Below are positions 1 through 5,550 of a stretch of 25,311 nt of DNA, piece by piece; the first letter of the stretch is position 1; each line of letters begins with the position of its first letter. Source of the DNA: a virus; IMG/VR virus record IMGVR_UViG_3300042934_000202, positions 1 to 25,311 of that record. The stretch is one strand, 5' to 3'. The translations under genes and the position numbers were made by a program. Under the pieces are notes generated by a model. It saw nothing but the letters and a program-made list of their open reading frames with translations, ran no database searches and was not told the DNA's origin.

Positions 1-259
1 TCTGCGCTGCACTAGCAGCCACGACCAGAACGCCGTTGGCCGCATCGGTCGCGTCAACGGTCAGATCGATCGCATCCTCATCCGGCGACTCCGCGGTAGG
101 ACGCCACTGCGACGACCACGACGAAAGTGCGGACAGATCCTCAGCCACCCATGAACCTTCATCGCCCTCAGTCGTGTACTCCCCGAACTCGAACGACTGC
201 GACCACGCATCACCCGCATACACGTTGTAAGGGGTGGAATCGATGAACACTTCAGCCAT
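1..259 (-). CDS. Tail-associated protein, 3' end outside window (partial)
   Basis: The reading frame starts with ATG at 259 (MAEVFIDSTPYNVY...) and stays open to the left edge, giving 86 residues of an incomplete protein. A GAGGGG ribosome site sits about 5 bases before the ATG, and the start overlaps the end of the upstream fibre gene by 8 bases. The visible part is acidic, rich in Ser and Trp, with short beta-like stretches and no catalytic motif. By position, directly after the fibre gene, it is probably a further tail-tip, fibre or baseplate-upper-like protein. This is inferred from context only; I do not recognise the family. Confidence 0.7.
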   Translation of the reverse strand, partial: MAEVFIDSTPYNVYAGDAWSQSFEFGEYTTEGDEGSWVAEDLSALSSWSSQWRPTAESPDEDAIDLTVDATDAANGVLVVAASAAQ

Positions 260-1061
260 TACGTCCCCTCAGTTCCTCTTCAAGACTTTCAATGCGCGCC
301 AGCAACACGGCGATCTGCGCGCCATACAGCCCGAGCTTGTCGATACCCGCCACAGCCCCGTTATCGTCGAACGTCAGAAACCGTTCCGCGTCAGTGCCGA
401 CCAGTTCGTCAGCGATCGGCCCGACGTGACGGCGATGCTTCTCGTCAGCGATGTACTCCCACTCGTACTGGGTGGGGAAAATCGACCGCAGACACGGCGC
501 CGGAACGATGTTCCGCTTCAACCTGCGAGCAGACGGGTTCGAGAACGTACCCGGAACCACGACCGTGTGAGACGACGTACCCAACATGACCTGATCGTCA
601 GCAGTTGTCGCAGCATCAGCCCCAACAGCCGTACTCCGCTCATGTTCTACCTGAGCACCCGAGCCCAACGCAGTCGCATCCTCAGCCGGCGCATACGTCC
701 CCTGACCGACAGCCACACTCCCAAACGCATACGCCTGCGCGGACATCCCAACCGCAACCGACCGTGACCCCGACGCCGTCGAACCTTGACCAGCCGCTAC
801 CGAATCATCCTCAGTCGCTTCAGCACCATCCCCCAACGCAACGGCCGCATACCCCGTCGCATGCGCGTTCACACCCAACGAAACGGACCGGACGCCGGTG
901 GCTGTAGCGTCCACACCCAGCACAATGCTGTTCGCGCCACCGCCAGCGTGGGAACTATCGTCCCCACCACCAGCGTCCGCAGTGCCCGCCTCAAGCCGTT
1001 CAACACGCTTCTTCAACCTGCGAGTCTCCGCACTCGGGTCCGAAGGATCATCAAGCGGCAT
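252..1061 (-). CDS. Tail fibre protein with YadA-like head repeats and S74-type chaperone domain
   Basis: 269 residues. After a short charged helix (about 10-27) come roughly seven repeats of the form S-V-A-x-G-x-x-A-x-A (about 44-160), the left-handed parallel roll pattern of trimeric YadA-type adhesin heads. The C-terminal part (about 175-269) looks like an intramolecular chaperone of endosialidase (peptidase S74). It has S-A-R-R-L-K-R-N-I, where Ser and Lys lie five residues apart as in the self-cleaving dyad, then GPIADELV and a terminal coiled coil. The family trimerises fibres and then releases itself. Two adjacent ATGs exist at 1064 and 1061; I chose 1061 because GGAGGT lies 5 bases before it and only 2 before the other. 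Likely a receptor-binding fibre. Confidence 0.85.
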   Translation of the reverse strand: MPLDDPSDPSAETRRLKKRVERLEAGTADAGGGDDSSHAGGGANSIVLGVDATATGVRSVSLGVNAHATGYAAVALGDGAEATEDDSVAAGQGSTASGSRSVAVGMSAQAYAFGSVAVGQGTYAPAEDATALGSGAQVEHERSTAVGADAATTADDQVMLGTSSHTVVVPGTFSNPSARRLKRNIVPAPCLRSIFPTQYEWEYIADEKHRRHVGPIADELVGTDAERFLTFDDNGAVAGIDKLGLYGAQIAVLLARIESLEEELRGRNG

Positions 1062-2136
1062 CATGCACCTCCGGAGTCACCGTCATACCCATCGAACCCG
1101 ACAAAGCCACCACACGAAGATGCTTCGTACCAGCCGACAACCGCTCATGCCCAGACGCGACCGTCGCACCAAGCAAACTCCCCGGCGCAGCAAACTCCGG
1201 ACCATCCGGGAAGATGTTCAACCCAAACGACCACGCCGACGTCGGGAATTGCAGCGCCGCGAAAGTGTGATCCGCCGCCGCCTGCAACCGGTCAGGGTCA
1301 GTCACGTCAGCGAAGTCAACCCACGTATCCCGAACACTGATCGCGGCCGGCCCCTCAATACCACCCGCGAACGCAGCCGCCGAAATCGCAGACTTCCCAC
1401 CACCACTGAACGCGGCAACACCAGTCATCTGCCGAACCACGTCCCGCGTGACCTTCAAGTCAAGCACCGGAGACGAATCCCCACGAATATCGAACGTCGT
1501 CTCCGAACCGATCTCCACCACCGGAGAACCAACAAGCGTCTCAAACCGCAGGTTCCCACCCGTCTTATACGGGCGCAGGAACACCTCGCAACCATCGTCC
1601 TCAACCTGCTGTAGATGGTCCTCGATCTTCAACCGCTCGTTGTACTTCCAGTCAGCAGAGAACCCACCCGAACCATCAGCAGGACGGTCAATGGGCAGGT
1701 ACGCGATCGCGAACAGCGGGTCGAAGATGGCGCGCACAGCACCAGCGTGCGACCGAGTCGTCACCGTGAGCACCGAGGCGGTCGGGTTGTACGCGCTCAC
1801 CGGCCACATCATGCGGTCGTTGAAATACGCCCCGCGCATCTCAACGCTAGAGAGACGAACAGTCCGAGACTTGTCGTCCCACACGTCCCGCTGAATGACA
1901 CCCGCATACGCTACGTGGTCGGTAGCCGCCCACTCCTGAGTGATCGTGTAACGGTTCCCGAGCGTCAGTTCTTCAACGTCCGCCTGGGACAGACCCGACC
2001 CGAACGCACGCACCGTGTGATAAGCCGAACCCTGCCCAGTGATCCGCGTCTGCCAGTCGGCATCACTGCACGGAAGCGTCCCCGCGTACGCACCGTCATG
2101 CGTGTAGTAGACCTTGTTCACCCACTCGTCGGTCAC
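1051..2136 (-). CDS. Minor tail protein (tail tip/baseplate hub-like)
   Basis: 361 residues from a GTG at 2136, which forms a GTGA overlap with the preceding stop and has AAGGTG 8 bases upstream. An in-frame ATG at 2169 would add 11 residues but has a deeper overlap. The protein is beta-rich with few charged clusters. It contains an Asp/Gly-rich middle (residues around 230-280) typical of siphoviral tail-tip proteins. It lies after tape measure and distal-tail genes and before the fibre gene, the usual place of the tail-associated lysin/hub component. I see no peptidase or lysozyme motif, so only a structural role is proposed. Confidence 0.75.
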   Translation of the reverse strand: MTDEWVNKVYYTHDGAYAGTLPCSDADWQTRITGQGSAYHTVRAFGSGLSQADVEELTLGNRYTITQEWAATDHVAYAGVIQRDVWDDKSRTVRLSSVEMRGAYFNDRMMWPVSAYNPTASVLTVTTRSHAGAVRAIFDPLFAIAYLPIDRPADGSGGFSADWKYNERLKIEDHLQQVEDDGCEVFLRPYKTGGNLRFETLVGSPVVEIGSETTFDIRGDSSPVLDLKVTRDVVRQMTGVAAFSGGGKSAISAAAFAGGIEGPAAISVRDTWVDFADVTDPDRLQAAADHTFAALQFPTSAWSFGLNIFPDGPEFAAPGSLLGATVASGHERLSAGTKHLRVVALSGSMGMTVTPEVHDAA

Positions 2137-2558
2137 GGGAGCAACACCTTCGTCGGGTCCGGCGCCCACAACTGCAATCGGTACCGCGCCTGCATCCCAT
2201 ACATCTCGATGACGACCTCCGGGGAACCATGCCGGCGAACCTCCGACGTGTACGTCCCCGTCGCCTGCTCAACCGTGAAAGTGCCCATCCCGCCATCCGC
2301 AAGCAGATCCTCGAGCGCCTTCATCGCAACCTCAAACGCCGCAGGATCATCGTCGGTCAGAATGAGACCCGTGAGGGTGATGAGCCGTGGCCCGAGGTGT
2401 CCGGGAGCGTCGAAGTCACCGTCGCCGTTCGGGCGTGGGATGGTCTCGCGACGCATCTCCACACCCTCAAACCAGCCCTTCAACCCGTCGTCCTCGATCG
2501 TGTAGGTTGCCGCACCCCCACCGCCAACGAACGTCAGCCCACCAAGAGTCGCGATCAT
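2133..2558 (-). CDS. Distal tail protein (Dit-like)
   Basis: 141 residues. The pattern 'R-E-T-I-P-R-P-N-G-D-G-D-F' followed by 'G-P-R-L-I-T-L-T-G' and a C-terminal beta region ending in 'LQLWAPDP' matches the N-terminal belt domain of siphovirus Dit/tail-component proteins, which form the hexameric ring joining tail tube to tail tip. It is shorter than classical Dit proteins (about 250 residues), so an extra galectin-like domain is absent. Start ATG overlaps the tape measure stop as TGATG and is preceded by GGGGGAA. The call rests on motif and position. Confidence 0.75.
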   Translation of the reverse strand: MIATLGGLTFVGGGGAATYTIEDDGLKGWFEGVEMRRETIPRPNGDGDFDAPGHLGPRLITLTGLILTDDDPAAFEVAMKALEDLLADGGMGTFTVEQATGTYTSEVRRHGSPEVVIEMYGMQARYRLQLWAPDPTKVLLP

Positions 2559-5305
2559 CAGTTCCCCCTAGCTGTGAACGCCATCCGCTCCGCAGCGATA
2601 CGGGCGATCTGCGCTTCACTCATGCCCGGTGCCGGGTAGATGTTCTGCGTGACCTGCTGCACGGTCCCCGCCGCTCCCCCGCCGATCCCACCGGAGTGCA
2701 GGGCATCACGGAACGCGTAGACGGAGTGCTGACCACCCATCGCGTCCACATCCGCGGCGGACAGCACATGCTCACCATCCGAAAGTGCAAACAGGCCCGC
2801 CGTGTCATCCTTCGGCCCACCGGGGCCATAAATCGCGCCACCATCAGCACGACCCGGACCCTGCCACTCAGCCGACCCGCGAACCGGAACCGTAATCGTT
2901 GTCCCGTCGAACATCGTGATGAGGCGTGTCATCGCCTGCTCTGCCCCGGACGTATCGAGGTTCGCAACCGTGTTGATGTTCTCGGGGATGAGCCCCAACT
3001 CATCGGCGTATGCCTCCGCAGCTTCCCCGGTAATACCGAACTGCTCAAGCTGCTTGATGAGTTCCTCGCGTCCCGCGGCAATAACGCCGTTCGCGTCCTC
3101 CTGTGACCCCGTCTGCTCGTAAGTAGCCGCAGACAGTTCCAACGTGGACTCAGCGAGATCGTCGAGCGACGACTCAGCGTCACGCCCGAGCTGGGTCGCG
3201 ATGTCGAGGGTGGGAATGAACCCATCCAACGACGCAACGAACCCGTCAAGGGTGCCGTTAGCCGCCAGGTACGCGTCCTGCTGCGGCTTGATGAAGTCAT
3301 CGATCTGCCGCTGAACCGCGTCTGACACGTCATCTGTCGCCTGCTCGAACTGACGCTGGGCATCACGCACACTTAGAGTCGCAGAACCGAAGTTGCGGAT
3401 CTGGTCGGCCAGGTCGTCGATACCATCACCGGTCGCCTCGGCCTGACCGGCCAAGGCACGCAAGGCGTCCTCGTTGTCTTTCGTGGTGTCTTCCGAGTCG
3501 CCGAGCGCCAGGTCAAGAAGATTCTGCCCTTCCGCCGCGACACCCGCCGCCGTCGCCTGGTCAGTGAGCGCCGACTTGTACGCCGGCATCTGGCCCAGCA
3601 GAAGCTCCTGTTGCTTCTCCGTGAGTTCAGCGCTCTCAGCGAGCAACCGGAACTGCCTCTGTGCCGCAGGAAGATCCGACTCCGCAACCTTCGCGAGCTC
3701 GTCGCCAAGCAGACGCAGGTTCGAGATGGTCGAGTTGCCGATGATGTCAGAGGCGCCCGTAGCGCCGCCACGGTCCAACACGTCGCCCAGTTCCTCGAGC
3801 TGCTTCGTCGCCAGTTCGATCCCAGAGCCACCGAACTTGCCCGCAGAAGCGGCCAGCAGATCGACCGCGTTACGGGCCGACGTGACCTTATTCGCGACAA
3901 CCTCAGCCTCGGGACCAACGTTCTTCAACGCGTCAGTGAGCGCGTCCAGCGCGACCGTTCCGACAGCGATCCCAGCGAGCGCACCGCCACCAATCTTCGC
4001 GATCAGGCCAAGGCCCTTCGCCGCAGCCTGAGCCTTCGGGCTCATCAACTCGAGCGCCGCATTGAACTCAGCAACCTTCGGAATCAGCAGCAGGTAAGCA
4101 CCATAGGCGAGCCCACCCGCCGAAGCGACAGCACCAAGCCAGAACACGGCCTGCTGACCCGCAGCAGGCATCTCGTTGAACTTGTCAACAAGGTCCGTGA
4201 TGCCCTGCGTGAAGAAACGCAGAGGACCATCCGCAGCCTCACCCATCGAAATCAGGGCAGTGTCAACGGCGCCGTTCAGCGCTTCCCAGTCACCCTTCAG
4301 GTTGTCGAGCTTGGTTGCCGCAGTCTCAGCCGCATACCCGGCGTCATCAACCTCGTTCGTCCAGTCCTCGATGCCCTCCGCGCCCTCTTCGTAGAGAACC
4401 GTCGCCCCACGAATCGCGTCCTGACCGAAGATCATCGCCAGCGTGGTCTGCTTCTGCTCGTCCGTCATCCCCGCAAGGGACGTTTCGAGCTCGCCGGCCA
4501 GACCAGACAGGCCAATGAACTTGCCCTGAGCGTCGTACGCCTCGAACCCGATCTCCTTCATGAGATCGCGGACTTCACCAGTCGGGTTCGCGAGGCGCAG
4601 AAGCATCGTCCGGAACGACGTACCAGCATCGGAACCGAGTAGACCCGCCGACGCGAACGCCGCCAGAGACCCAACCGTCTCCTCAACGGACACACCAAAC
4701 TGGTCGGCAACCAGACCCGCCTGACCAAGCGCCTGCGAGATGTCGCCAACGTTACCCATGGCCTTACCCGCGCCCGCCGCCAGAAGGTCAGCGACATGCG
4801 TGGCATCGCTACCGTCAAGGCTGAACTGCTGAAGCGTGGTCGCAGCAATTTCCGCGGCCTCAGCGACACCAATACCAGCAGCCGCAGCAAGGTCCAGAGA
4901 CCCCGTCAGCGCACCACCCAGGATCTCCGACGCCCCAAGACCAGCCTTCGCCAGTTCCTCGATCGCGTTCGCCGACTCCGTGGCAGAGAACACCGTTGTG
5001 GCGCCAGCTTCGAGCGCCGCATCACGCAGCCCCTCAATGTTGTCGCGCGCATCCTCACCAGTCGCCGCAACGTTCGACATCGCCTGGTCGAACTCTCCGA
5101 ACTTCGCGACCGCAACACCCAGCCCGGCCGCAATAACCGCACCCGACGCCAGCGCAGTGCGACCAAGGAGCGTGAACGCTTCCCGCTGCTTCGCAAGCTT
5201 CTGAGCCTCAGTAGCCGTCTCACGGGTCGCCTTCGCGGCCTTGTTCATCCCATCGACGTACTGCTGGTACCCAATCGCCAGCTCAGCCTTGACCTGCCTA
5301 GTCAT
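2558..5305 (-). CDS. Tape measure protein (TP901 family)
   Basis: 915 residues from the ATG at 5305 (MTRQVKAELAIGYQQ); GGAGG lies just upstream. A farther in-frame ATG at 5365 lacks a ribosome site and would run into the divergent gene. The N-terminal 300 residues carry the TP901 core (FGEFDQAMSNVAATGED... through 'IFGQDAIRGATVLYEEG'). Hydrophobic Ala/Gly-rich segments occur near residues 25-50, 385-415 and 430-455, followed by a long alpha-helical, Asp/Gln-rich region. Tape measure proteins set tail length and are ejected into the host envelope; at about 1.5 angstrom per residue this predicts a tail near 135-140 nm. The C-terminus contains a PAPGMSE motif shared with a capsid-neighbour gene (see repeat entries). 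Confidence 0.95.
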   Translation of the reverse strand: MTRQVKAELAIGYQQYVDGMNKAAKATRETATEAQKLAKQREAFTLLGRTALASGAVIAAGLGVAVAKFGEFDQAMSNVAATGEDARDNIEGLRDAALEAGATTVFSATESANAIEELAKAGLGASEILGGALTGSLDLAAAAGIGVAEAAEIAATTLQQFSLDGSDATHVADLLAAGAGKAMGNVGDISQALGQAGLVADQFGVSVEETVGSLAAFASAGLLGSDAGTSFRTMLLRLANPTGEVRDLMKEIGFEAYDAQGKFIGLSGLAGELETSLAGMTDEQKQTTLAMIFGQDAIRGATVLYEEGAEGIEDWTNEVDDAGYAAETAATKLDNLKGDWEALNGAVDTALISMGEAADGPLRFFTQGITDLVDKFNEMPAAGQQAVFWLGAVASAGGLAYGAYLLLIPKVAEFNAALELMSPKAQAAAKGLGLIAKIGGGALAGIAVGTVALDALTDALKNVGPEAEVVANKVTSARNAVDLLAASAGKFGGSGIELATKQLEELGDVLDRGGATGASDIIGNSTISNLRLLGDELAKVAESDLPAAQRQFRLLAESAELTEKQQELLLGQMPAYKSALTDQATAAGVAAEGQNLLDLALGDSEDTTKDNEDALRALAGQAEATGDGIDDLADQIRNFGSATLSVRDAQRQFEQATDDVSDAVQRQIDDFIKPQQDAYLAANGTLDGFVASLDGFIPTLDIATQLGRDAESSLDDLAESTLELSAATYEQTGSQEDANGVIAAGREELIKQLEQFGITGEAAEAYADELGLIPENINTVANLDTSGAEQAMTRLITMFDGTTITVPVRGSAEWQGPGRADGGAIYGPGGPKDDTAGLFALSDGEHVLSAADVDAMGGQHSVYAFRDALHSGGIGGGAAGTVQQVTQNIYPAPGMSEAQIARIAAERMAFTARGN
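2605..2644 (-). repeat. Copy 1 of a 40-bp repeat encoding the PAPGMSE peptide
   Basis: This 40-base stretch at the 3' end of the tape measure gene matches 8908-8947 at 33 of 40 positions by my count. Both copies are in frame and encode I-x-P-A-P-G-M-S-E-x-x-I-x-R-(I/V). Confidence 0.8.
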
Positions 5306-5355
5306 GCACCCTCCAGGGATGTATCGCGACCGGCAGTCCGGTACTGTTCGGTTGC

Positions 5356-5550
5356 ATGAGGGCAAAGACCGTCACGGGCGCAGCACTAATAGCGGTCGCC
5401 GTGCTGCTCGCCGGCGTGACGGTCTACATGACCCTCGGACTGGACCTGCTACGAACCCTGTGGCTCTACACGCCCTCATGGGTGCTGCTGGTCATCGGGG
5501 TGTTCACGATCGTTTCTGCACGTCCCACACCAGCGAACCCAGATCGGTAG
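5356..5550 (+). CDS. Small two-helix membrane protein on the opposite strand
   Basis: 64 residues with two strongly hydrophobic segments (about residues 7-27 and 37-56) separated by a short loop, and a positively charged N-terminus (MRAKTV). It fills the only real gap in the minus-strand tail operon and overlaps the end of the tail chaperone frame tail-to-tail by 47 bases. Codon third positions are mostly G or C, as in neighbours. There is no ribosome site. A TACTGT box at 5342-5347, 8 bases before the ATG, would place transcription start close to the start codon, so the mRNA may be leaderless. Role unknown; holin-like or superinfection-exclusion proteins have this topology, but nothing here proves either. 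Confidence 0.65.
   Translation: MRAKTVTGAALIAVAVLLAGVTVYMTLGLDLLRTLWLYTPSWVLLVIGVFTIVSARPTPANPDR

Follow-up and report, generated by a model that had tools for sequence, protein, structure and literature searches.

A short phage tail fibre that joins a YadA-head beta-roll to a predicted self-cleaving S74 domain, with modules exchanged among related viruses

A fibre gene in a tail operon

The window, by which we mean the whole 25.3-kb stretch of DNA analysed, is a virus record without flanking bacterial DNA. Its minus strand carries a run of tail genes: a tape measure gene (2558..5365; Pfam PhageMin_Tail, E 2.1e-48), a minor tail gene (2133..2558; phrog_5577, E 8.1e-17), a second minor tail gene (1051..2169; phrog_1885, E 2.4e-14), the fibre gene described here (252..1061), delimited by its open reading frame and Pfam domains, and a further gene (2..259) that runs off the window and has no PHROG match. 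Capsid, portal and terminase genes lie further along. Placed behind the tape measure and minor tail genes, the fibre gene overlaps both of its neighbours, the stop of 1051..2169 at its start and the start of 2..259 at its stop, an arrangement as in a translationally coupled operon.

Two adjacent ATGs open the frame. The first gives a protein of 270 residues (252-1064, minus strand) and sets the residue numbering used throughout; the second, at 1061, gives 269. A GGAGG read from the sequence at 1072-1068 favours ATG 1061, for which its 6 nt distance is the better Shine-Dalgarno spacing, and relatives such as L012 share this start, so that the coordinates 252-1061 given in an earlier sequence-only reading were correct. 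The fibre family comprises 36 complete members, the window and 35 others from virus contigs of only three metagenome datasets, and each was divided into three modules, an anchor, a head and a C-terminal part. In all three the median dN/dS across relatives lies below 1 (0.32 for the anchor, 0.28 for the C-terminal part and 0.57 for the head, the last a figure that misaligned repeats may inflate), and the frame behaves as coding. Each of 10 phage contigs checked holds one copy of the gene. Long open frames on the plus strand opposite the fibre gene (234-1614) are probably shadows of GC-rich coding sequence.

The capsid and scaffold genes of the window are 82% identical in DNA to those of Arthrobacter phage Pitbull, and its SSB gene is 80-83% identical to those of Microbacterium phages. 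These affinities point to an actinobacterial host as likely, and the actinophage reading proposed earlier gains support from them. Relatives of the fibre were sought in 84,980 bacterial and archaeal genomes and none was found, so no prophage copy names the host.

The YadA-head roll

The head occupies residues 42-171 (552..941, minus strand) and consists of nine 14-residue coils. Pfam YadA_head (PF05658) matches six stretches at E 9.7e-21, with 74 bits against a cut-off of 25, and was matched in 30 of 30 family members at E <= 0.1. In AlphaFold2 monomer models, for which the alignment input was 30 homologues, residues ~45-162 fold as a nine-coil beta-roll at pLDDT ~98, with nine strands in a strict 14-residue period from residue 47 to 161. 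Among solved structures the roll superposes best on the heads of YadA, BpaC, BoaA and EibD, at Z 20-24 and rmsd 1.4-2.5 over 120-146 residues (Z 21-24 for the first three; 23.9 to 7o23, BpaC, and 21.6 to 1p9h, YadA), whereas left-handed beta-helix enzymes form a fold-search background at about Z 9. Across the family, 14 is the most frequent Gly-Gly spacing, and heads are 94-144 residues long, with many of the lengths (102, 116, 130, 144) separated by a single 14-residue coil. Repeat spacing, model and Z scores together identify the 14-residue repeat folded as a roll that characterises LbR-YadA. The YadA-head roll first suggested from sequence is thereby borne out, although the "about seven" repeats counted at that time were too few, the model having about nine coils.

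These data also bear on a trivial origin, in which the repeats would be low-complexity Ala, Gly, Ser and Val of a GC-rich genome, matched spuriously by the domain profiles. The repeats are indeed GC-rich and long open frames overlap them on the opposite strand, but the E-value, the exact period, the confidence of the model, the fold matches and a dN/dS below 1 all contradict such an origin; chance was rejected as the source of the repeats, and we regard this explanation as exceedingly improbable.

Of the three modules, the head is under the weakest constraint, its possibly inflated dN/dS standing against 0.28-0.32 for the other two, which fits an exposed binding surface. Two histidines stand out in the alignment: His39 (948-950, minus strand), just ahead of the head, is invariant among 30 members, and His141 (642-644, minus strand) is more than 90% conserved within the otherwise variable head. 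Both are possible metal or axis contacts. The heads of L016, L018 and L035, and those of L028, L029 and L034, have extra loops (STITEPDAD... and LVAFAHTHS...) that break the 14-residue period and could be candidate receptor-binding loops.

The S74 domain and its predicted cleavage

The C-terminal part (residues 178-270; 255..533, minus strand) is a predicted S74 intramolecular chaperone/protease. Pfam Peptidase_S74 (PF13884) matches residues 178-221 at E 1.1e-5 with 26.1 bits, above the curated cut-off of 22, and the family assignment made in the sequence-only reading stands, as does the GPIADEL motif that it picked out. A C-terminal helix (243-268) is present in the models. Since the profile matches only 20 of 30 members at E <= 0.1, the other 10 lying below the reporting limit, this S74 is a divergent branch.

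The predicted catalytic dyad consists of Ser178 (531-533, minus strand) and, five residues later, Lys183 (516-518, minus strand). A dyad-blind scan, whose patterns all lay downstream of the Ser-Lys pair, returned 31 loci, and all 31 have the Ser and a Lys five residues on, as S-A-R-[RHC]-L-K, with a Pro directly before the Ser; the positions between the two vary while Ser and Lys stay invariant. The spacing is that of S587/K592 in MyRF and of the S911/K916 dyad in endoNF (PMC8326128), which upholds the earlier proposal that S-A-R-R-L-K is spaced as an S74 dyad. MyRF is cut at P586/S587, where K592 is the partner residue, and cleavage is abolished by either substitution, S587A or K592A (PMC8326128); in Bdellovibrio Bd3182, S74 cleavage is lost in S782A (PMC10769870). 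By alignment and by analogy with MyRF, self-cleavage of the fibre is predicted at Pro177/Ser178 (531..536, minus strand).

The AlphaFold2 monomer model of the S74 part has low confidence, whether computed alone or within the whole protein, and a fold search with it matched no S74 structure; a model of this quality counts neither for nor against. Because S74 domains of known structure are intertwined trimers, low confidence in a monomer is to be expected and carries little information. A profile search of this part against PDB sequences likewise returned no S74 structure, tblastn against 50,697 phage records gave no match, and direct alignment to phi29 gp12 found no sequence match to the fibre protein. 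In direct alignment to K1F endoNF only the C-terminal hairpin-helix aligned, weakly, and the catalytic region did not; these alignments were given no weight in assigning the domain to S74.

Four family members (L043-L046; L011 is the same as L043) have the same anchor and YadA head and no S74. In its place stands a 46-residue C-terminal piece (...DTQGTxxDIxxDDNYIYVKTxAGWKRSALSxF) that is 44-54% identical to the C-termini of cyanophage, Ochrobactrum and Klebsiella phage structural proteins and is probably a non-cleaved trimerisation cap. That these fibres use a piece without a dyad indicates that not every fibre of the family requires cleavage, and it raises the question of whether the S74 domain itself might stay in place as an uncleaved cap at the tip, aiding folding, its proteolysis lost or unneeded. 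The divergence of this S74 would agree with such a role, as would the Ala that follows the dyad Ser in all members, unlike the SDxxxK motif of the Bdellovibrio fibres (PMC10769870). However, a mere cap would have no need of a dyad that is kept without exception in all 31 loci; nor is Ala the sole departure from Asp, as K1F endoNF, which is cleaved at S911, has Asn in the sequence SNGERK. We consider permanent retention of the domain improbable, and prefer cleavage at Pro177/Ser178.

Module exchange and known systems

The N-terminal anchor (residues 1-41; 942..1064, minus strand) comprises a short helix (10-28), modelled at low pLDDT, a predicted coiled coil and a Gly-rich DSSH linker. Across the family, anchor identity tracks the 600 bases upstream (rho 0.82-0.88) and likewise the preceding 900 bases (rho 0.77; Mantel p 0.001). 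Head identity is almost unrelated to upstream identity (rho 0.06-0.14), and that of the C-terminal part is unrelated to it (rho about -0.04). The upstream minor tail protein (1051..2169) is the likely docking partner of the anchor.

With module types defined at 80% DNA identity, the 36 members contain 10 types of anchor, 21 of head and 13 of C-terminal part, which occur in 30 combinations, the head being the most diverse module. The anchor stays with its tail, while exchange of the other two modules, head and C-terminal part, is almost independent. Some pairs are clear recombinants. For L014 and L015 the shared fraction is 94% in the head against 43% in the anchor and 66% in the C-terminal part; for L037 and L038 it is 95% in head and C-terminal part against 41% in the anchor. 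No other DNA in the region tested is as conserved as the joint between head and S74, with its majority fraction of 0.95; one scan used GTFSNPSA as its pattern and so selected for the joint, and conservation of GTFSNPSA was judged only from the two scans without it. The sequence-only reading included neither cassette exchange nor the finding that some relatives carry a different C-terminal piece where S74 would be.

In L005 (5757-9726) the fibre gene is followed by genes for a 117-aa protein, a tail-repeat protein (PF12789), a 312-aa unknown, an M23 peptidase and small, possibly membrane proteins, which together are a tail-tip and lysis set. Such neighbours, among them the PF12789 protein and the 312-aa unknown ahead of the M23 peptidase gene, leave room for the fibre to be a structural spacer or baseplate decoration, with host binding left to another tail-tip protein from a downstream gene. 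In the isolated phage Pitbull, whose capsid is related, neither domain occurs among the tail proteins tested, and a minor tail protein with collagen repeats takes that place. Yet the head, with its 21 types, is the most diverse module, and its exchange does not follow the tail, as would be expected of a binding surface, and we think a purely structural role rather unlikely.

Probably, then, the gene encodes a short tail-tip fibre, itself probably trimeric, with a docked anchor, an exposed roll, a self-cleaving S74 domain and swappable cassettes. The ~40-residue N-terminal helix and linker would dock on the upstream minor tail protein, and the nine-coil roll would project as the exposed, probably receptor-binding part. 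The S74 domain would fold three chains together and then cut between Pro177 and Ser178 by means of its Ser178/Lys183 dyad, giving a mature chain of ~177 residues per subunit and a free chaperone of ~93. Head and, separately, C-terminal piece would be swapped onto a tail-matched anchor, changing the host-binding surface and leaving assembly intact; and because S74 would be gone once folding is done, swapping it would leave the mature fibre as it was. The domains, roll fold, dyad conservation, operon position and cassette exchange were computed directly. Trimerisation, cleavage and receptor binding would carry over by analogy from the protein families concerned. This explanation is favoured by the Pfam domains, the roll matches to trimeric autotransporter heads, the operon order, the invariant dyad with its Pro-Ser site and MyRF-like spacing, the correlation of anchor with upstream DNA, the weak head constraint and the single copy per contig. 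Against it stand the low-confidence S74 model, the 10 of 30 members in which S74 is missed, the Ala after Ser and the other tail-tip genes downstream, any of which could encode the binder.

A wider proposal, to which we give a little less than an even chance, is that of a three-cassette receptor-binding system, in which the anchor is matched to the tail, the roll is exchanged freely and varies in coil number, and the third cassette is either a disposable self-cleaving chaperone or a non-S74 piece; conserved sequence at the joints would let recombination build new working fibres. Module swapping among related viruses probably helps to change what they bind. In this small fibre of about 270 residues, roll, chaperone and anchor are cleanly separated, and dozens of natural recombinants make it testable within one short protein which module sets host specificity and, given natural relatives without S74, whether S74 cleavage is needed. 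The YadA roll appears as a general surface-binding scaffold that is not tied to outer-membrane bacteria.

The heads of YadA (1p9h), BpaC (7o23), BoaA (3s6l) and EibD (2xqh) have the same beta-roll as the fibre. These are bacterial surface proteins carried on an outer-membrane barrel and lack S74, whereas the fibre has no barrel: Pfam found no YadA anchor barrel match of the kind expected of a type Vc autotransporter, and S74 in its place. An outer membrane is needed only by the YadA translocation barrel, not by the head. A YadA head with a chaperone had been called unusual for an actinophage, which was overstated, as gp100 of Rhodococcus phage E3 is a structural protein with YadA_head (Hep_Hag) in an actinophage, and viral proteins named for S74 match the roll; E3 gp100 itself has no S74 match and belongs to a different phage type (142 kb). 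In phi29 gp12 (3suc, 3gq8), an appendage with an S74-type self-cleaved C-terminus, residues 552-691, before its end, align with the roll at Z 13.9, only moderately above the beta-helix background near 9. The Bdellovibrio MAT fibres (Bd3182 and others) are likewise mosaic trimeric fibres, some with S74 at their end and others with another C-terminal domain there, but are bacterial, with a triple beta-helix in place of the YadA roll and the motif SDxxxK (PMC10769870). The viral proteins A0A6J5PLB0, A0A6J5M016 and A0A481ZFW2 (Pithovirus) have BFVD models that match the fibre roll and names that assign S74 or an auto-processing chaperone; they come mostly from uncultured viruses and span 481-793 aa against 270 in the fibre. 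We know of no cassette analysis for these three proteins. A YadA head with S74 in an actinophage is not described in the literature covered, outside which most subscription journals lie. The YadA roll and S74 are each known, and their combination occurs in other viruses as well; what is new here is a very short version, probably from an actinophage, with strong evidence for cassette exchange and for an S74-free alternative.
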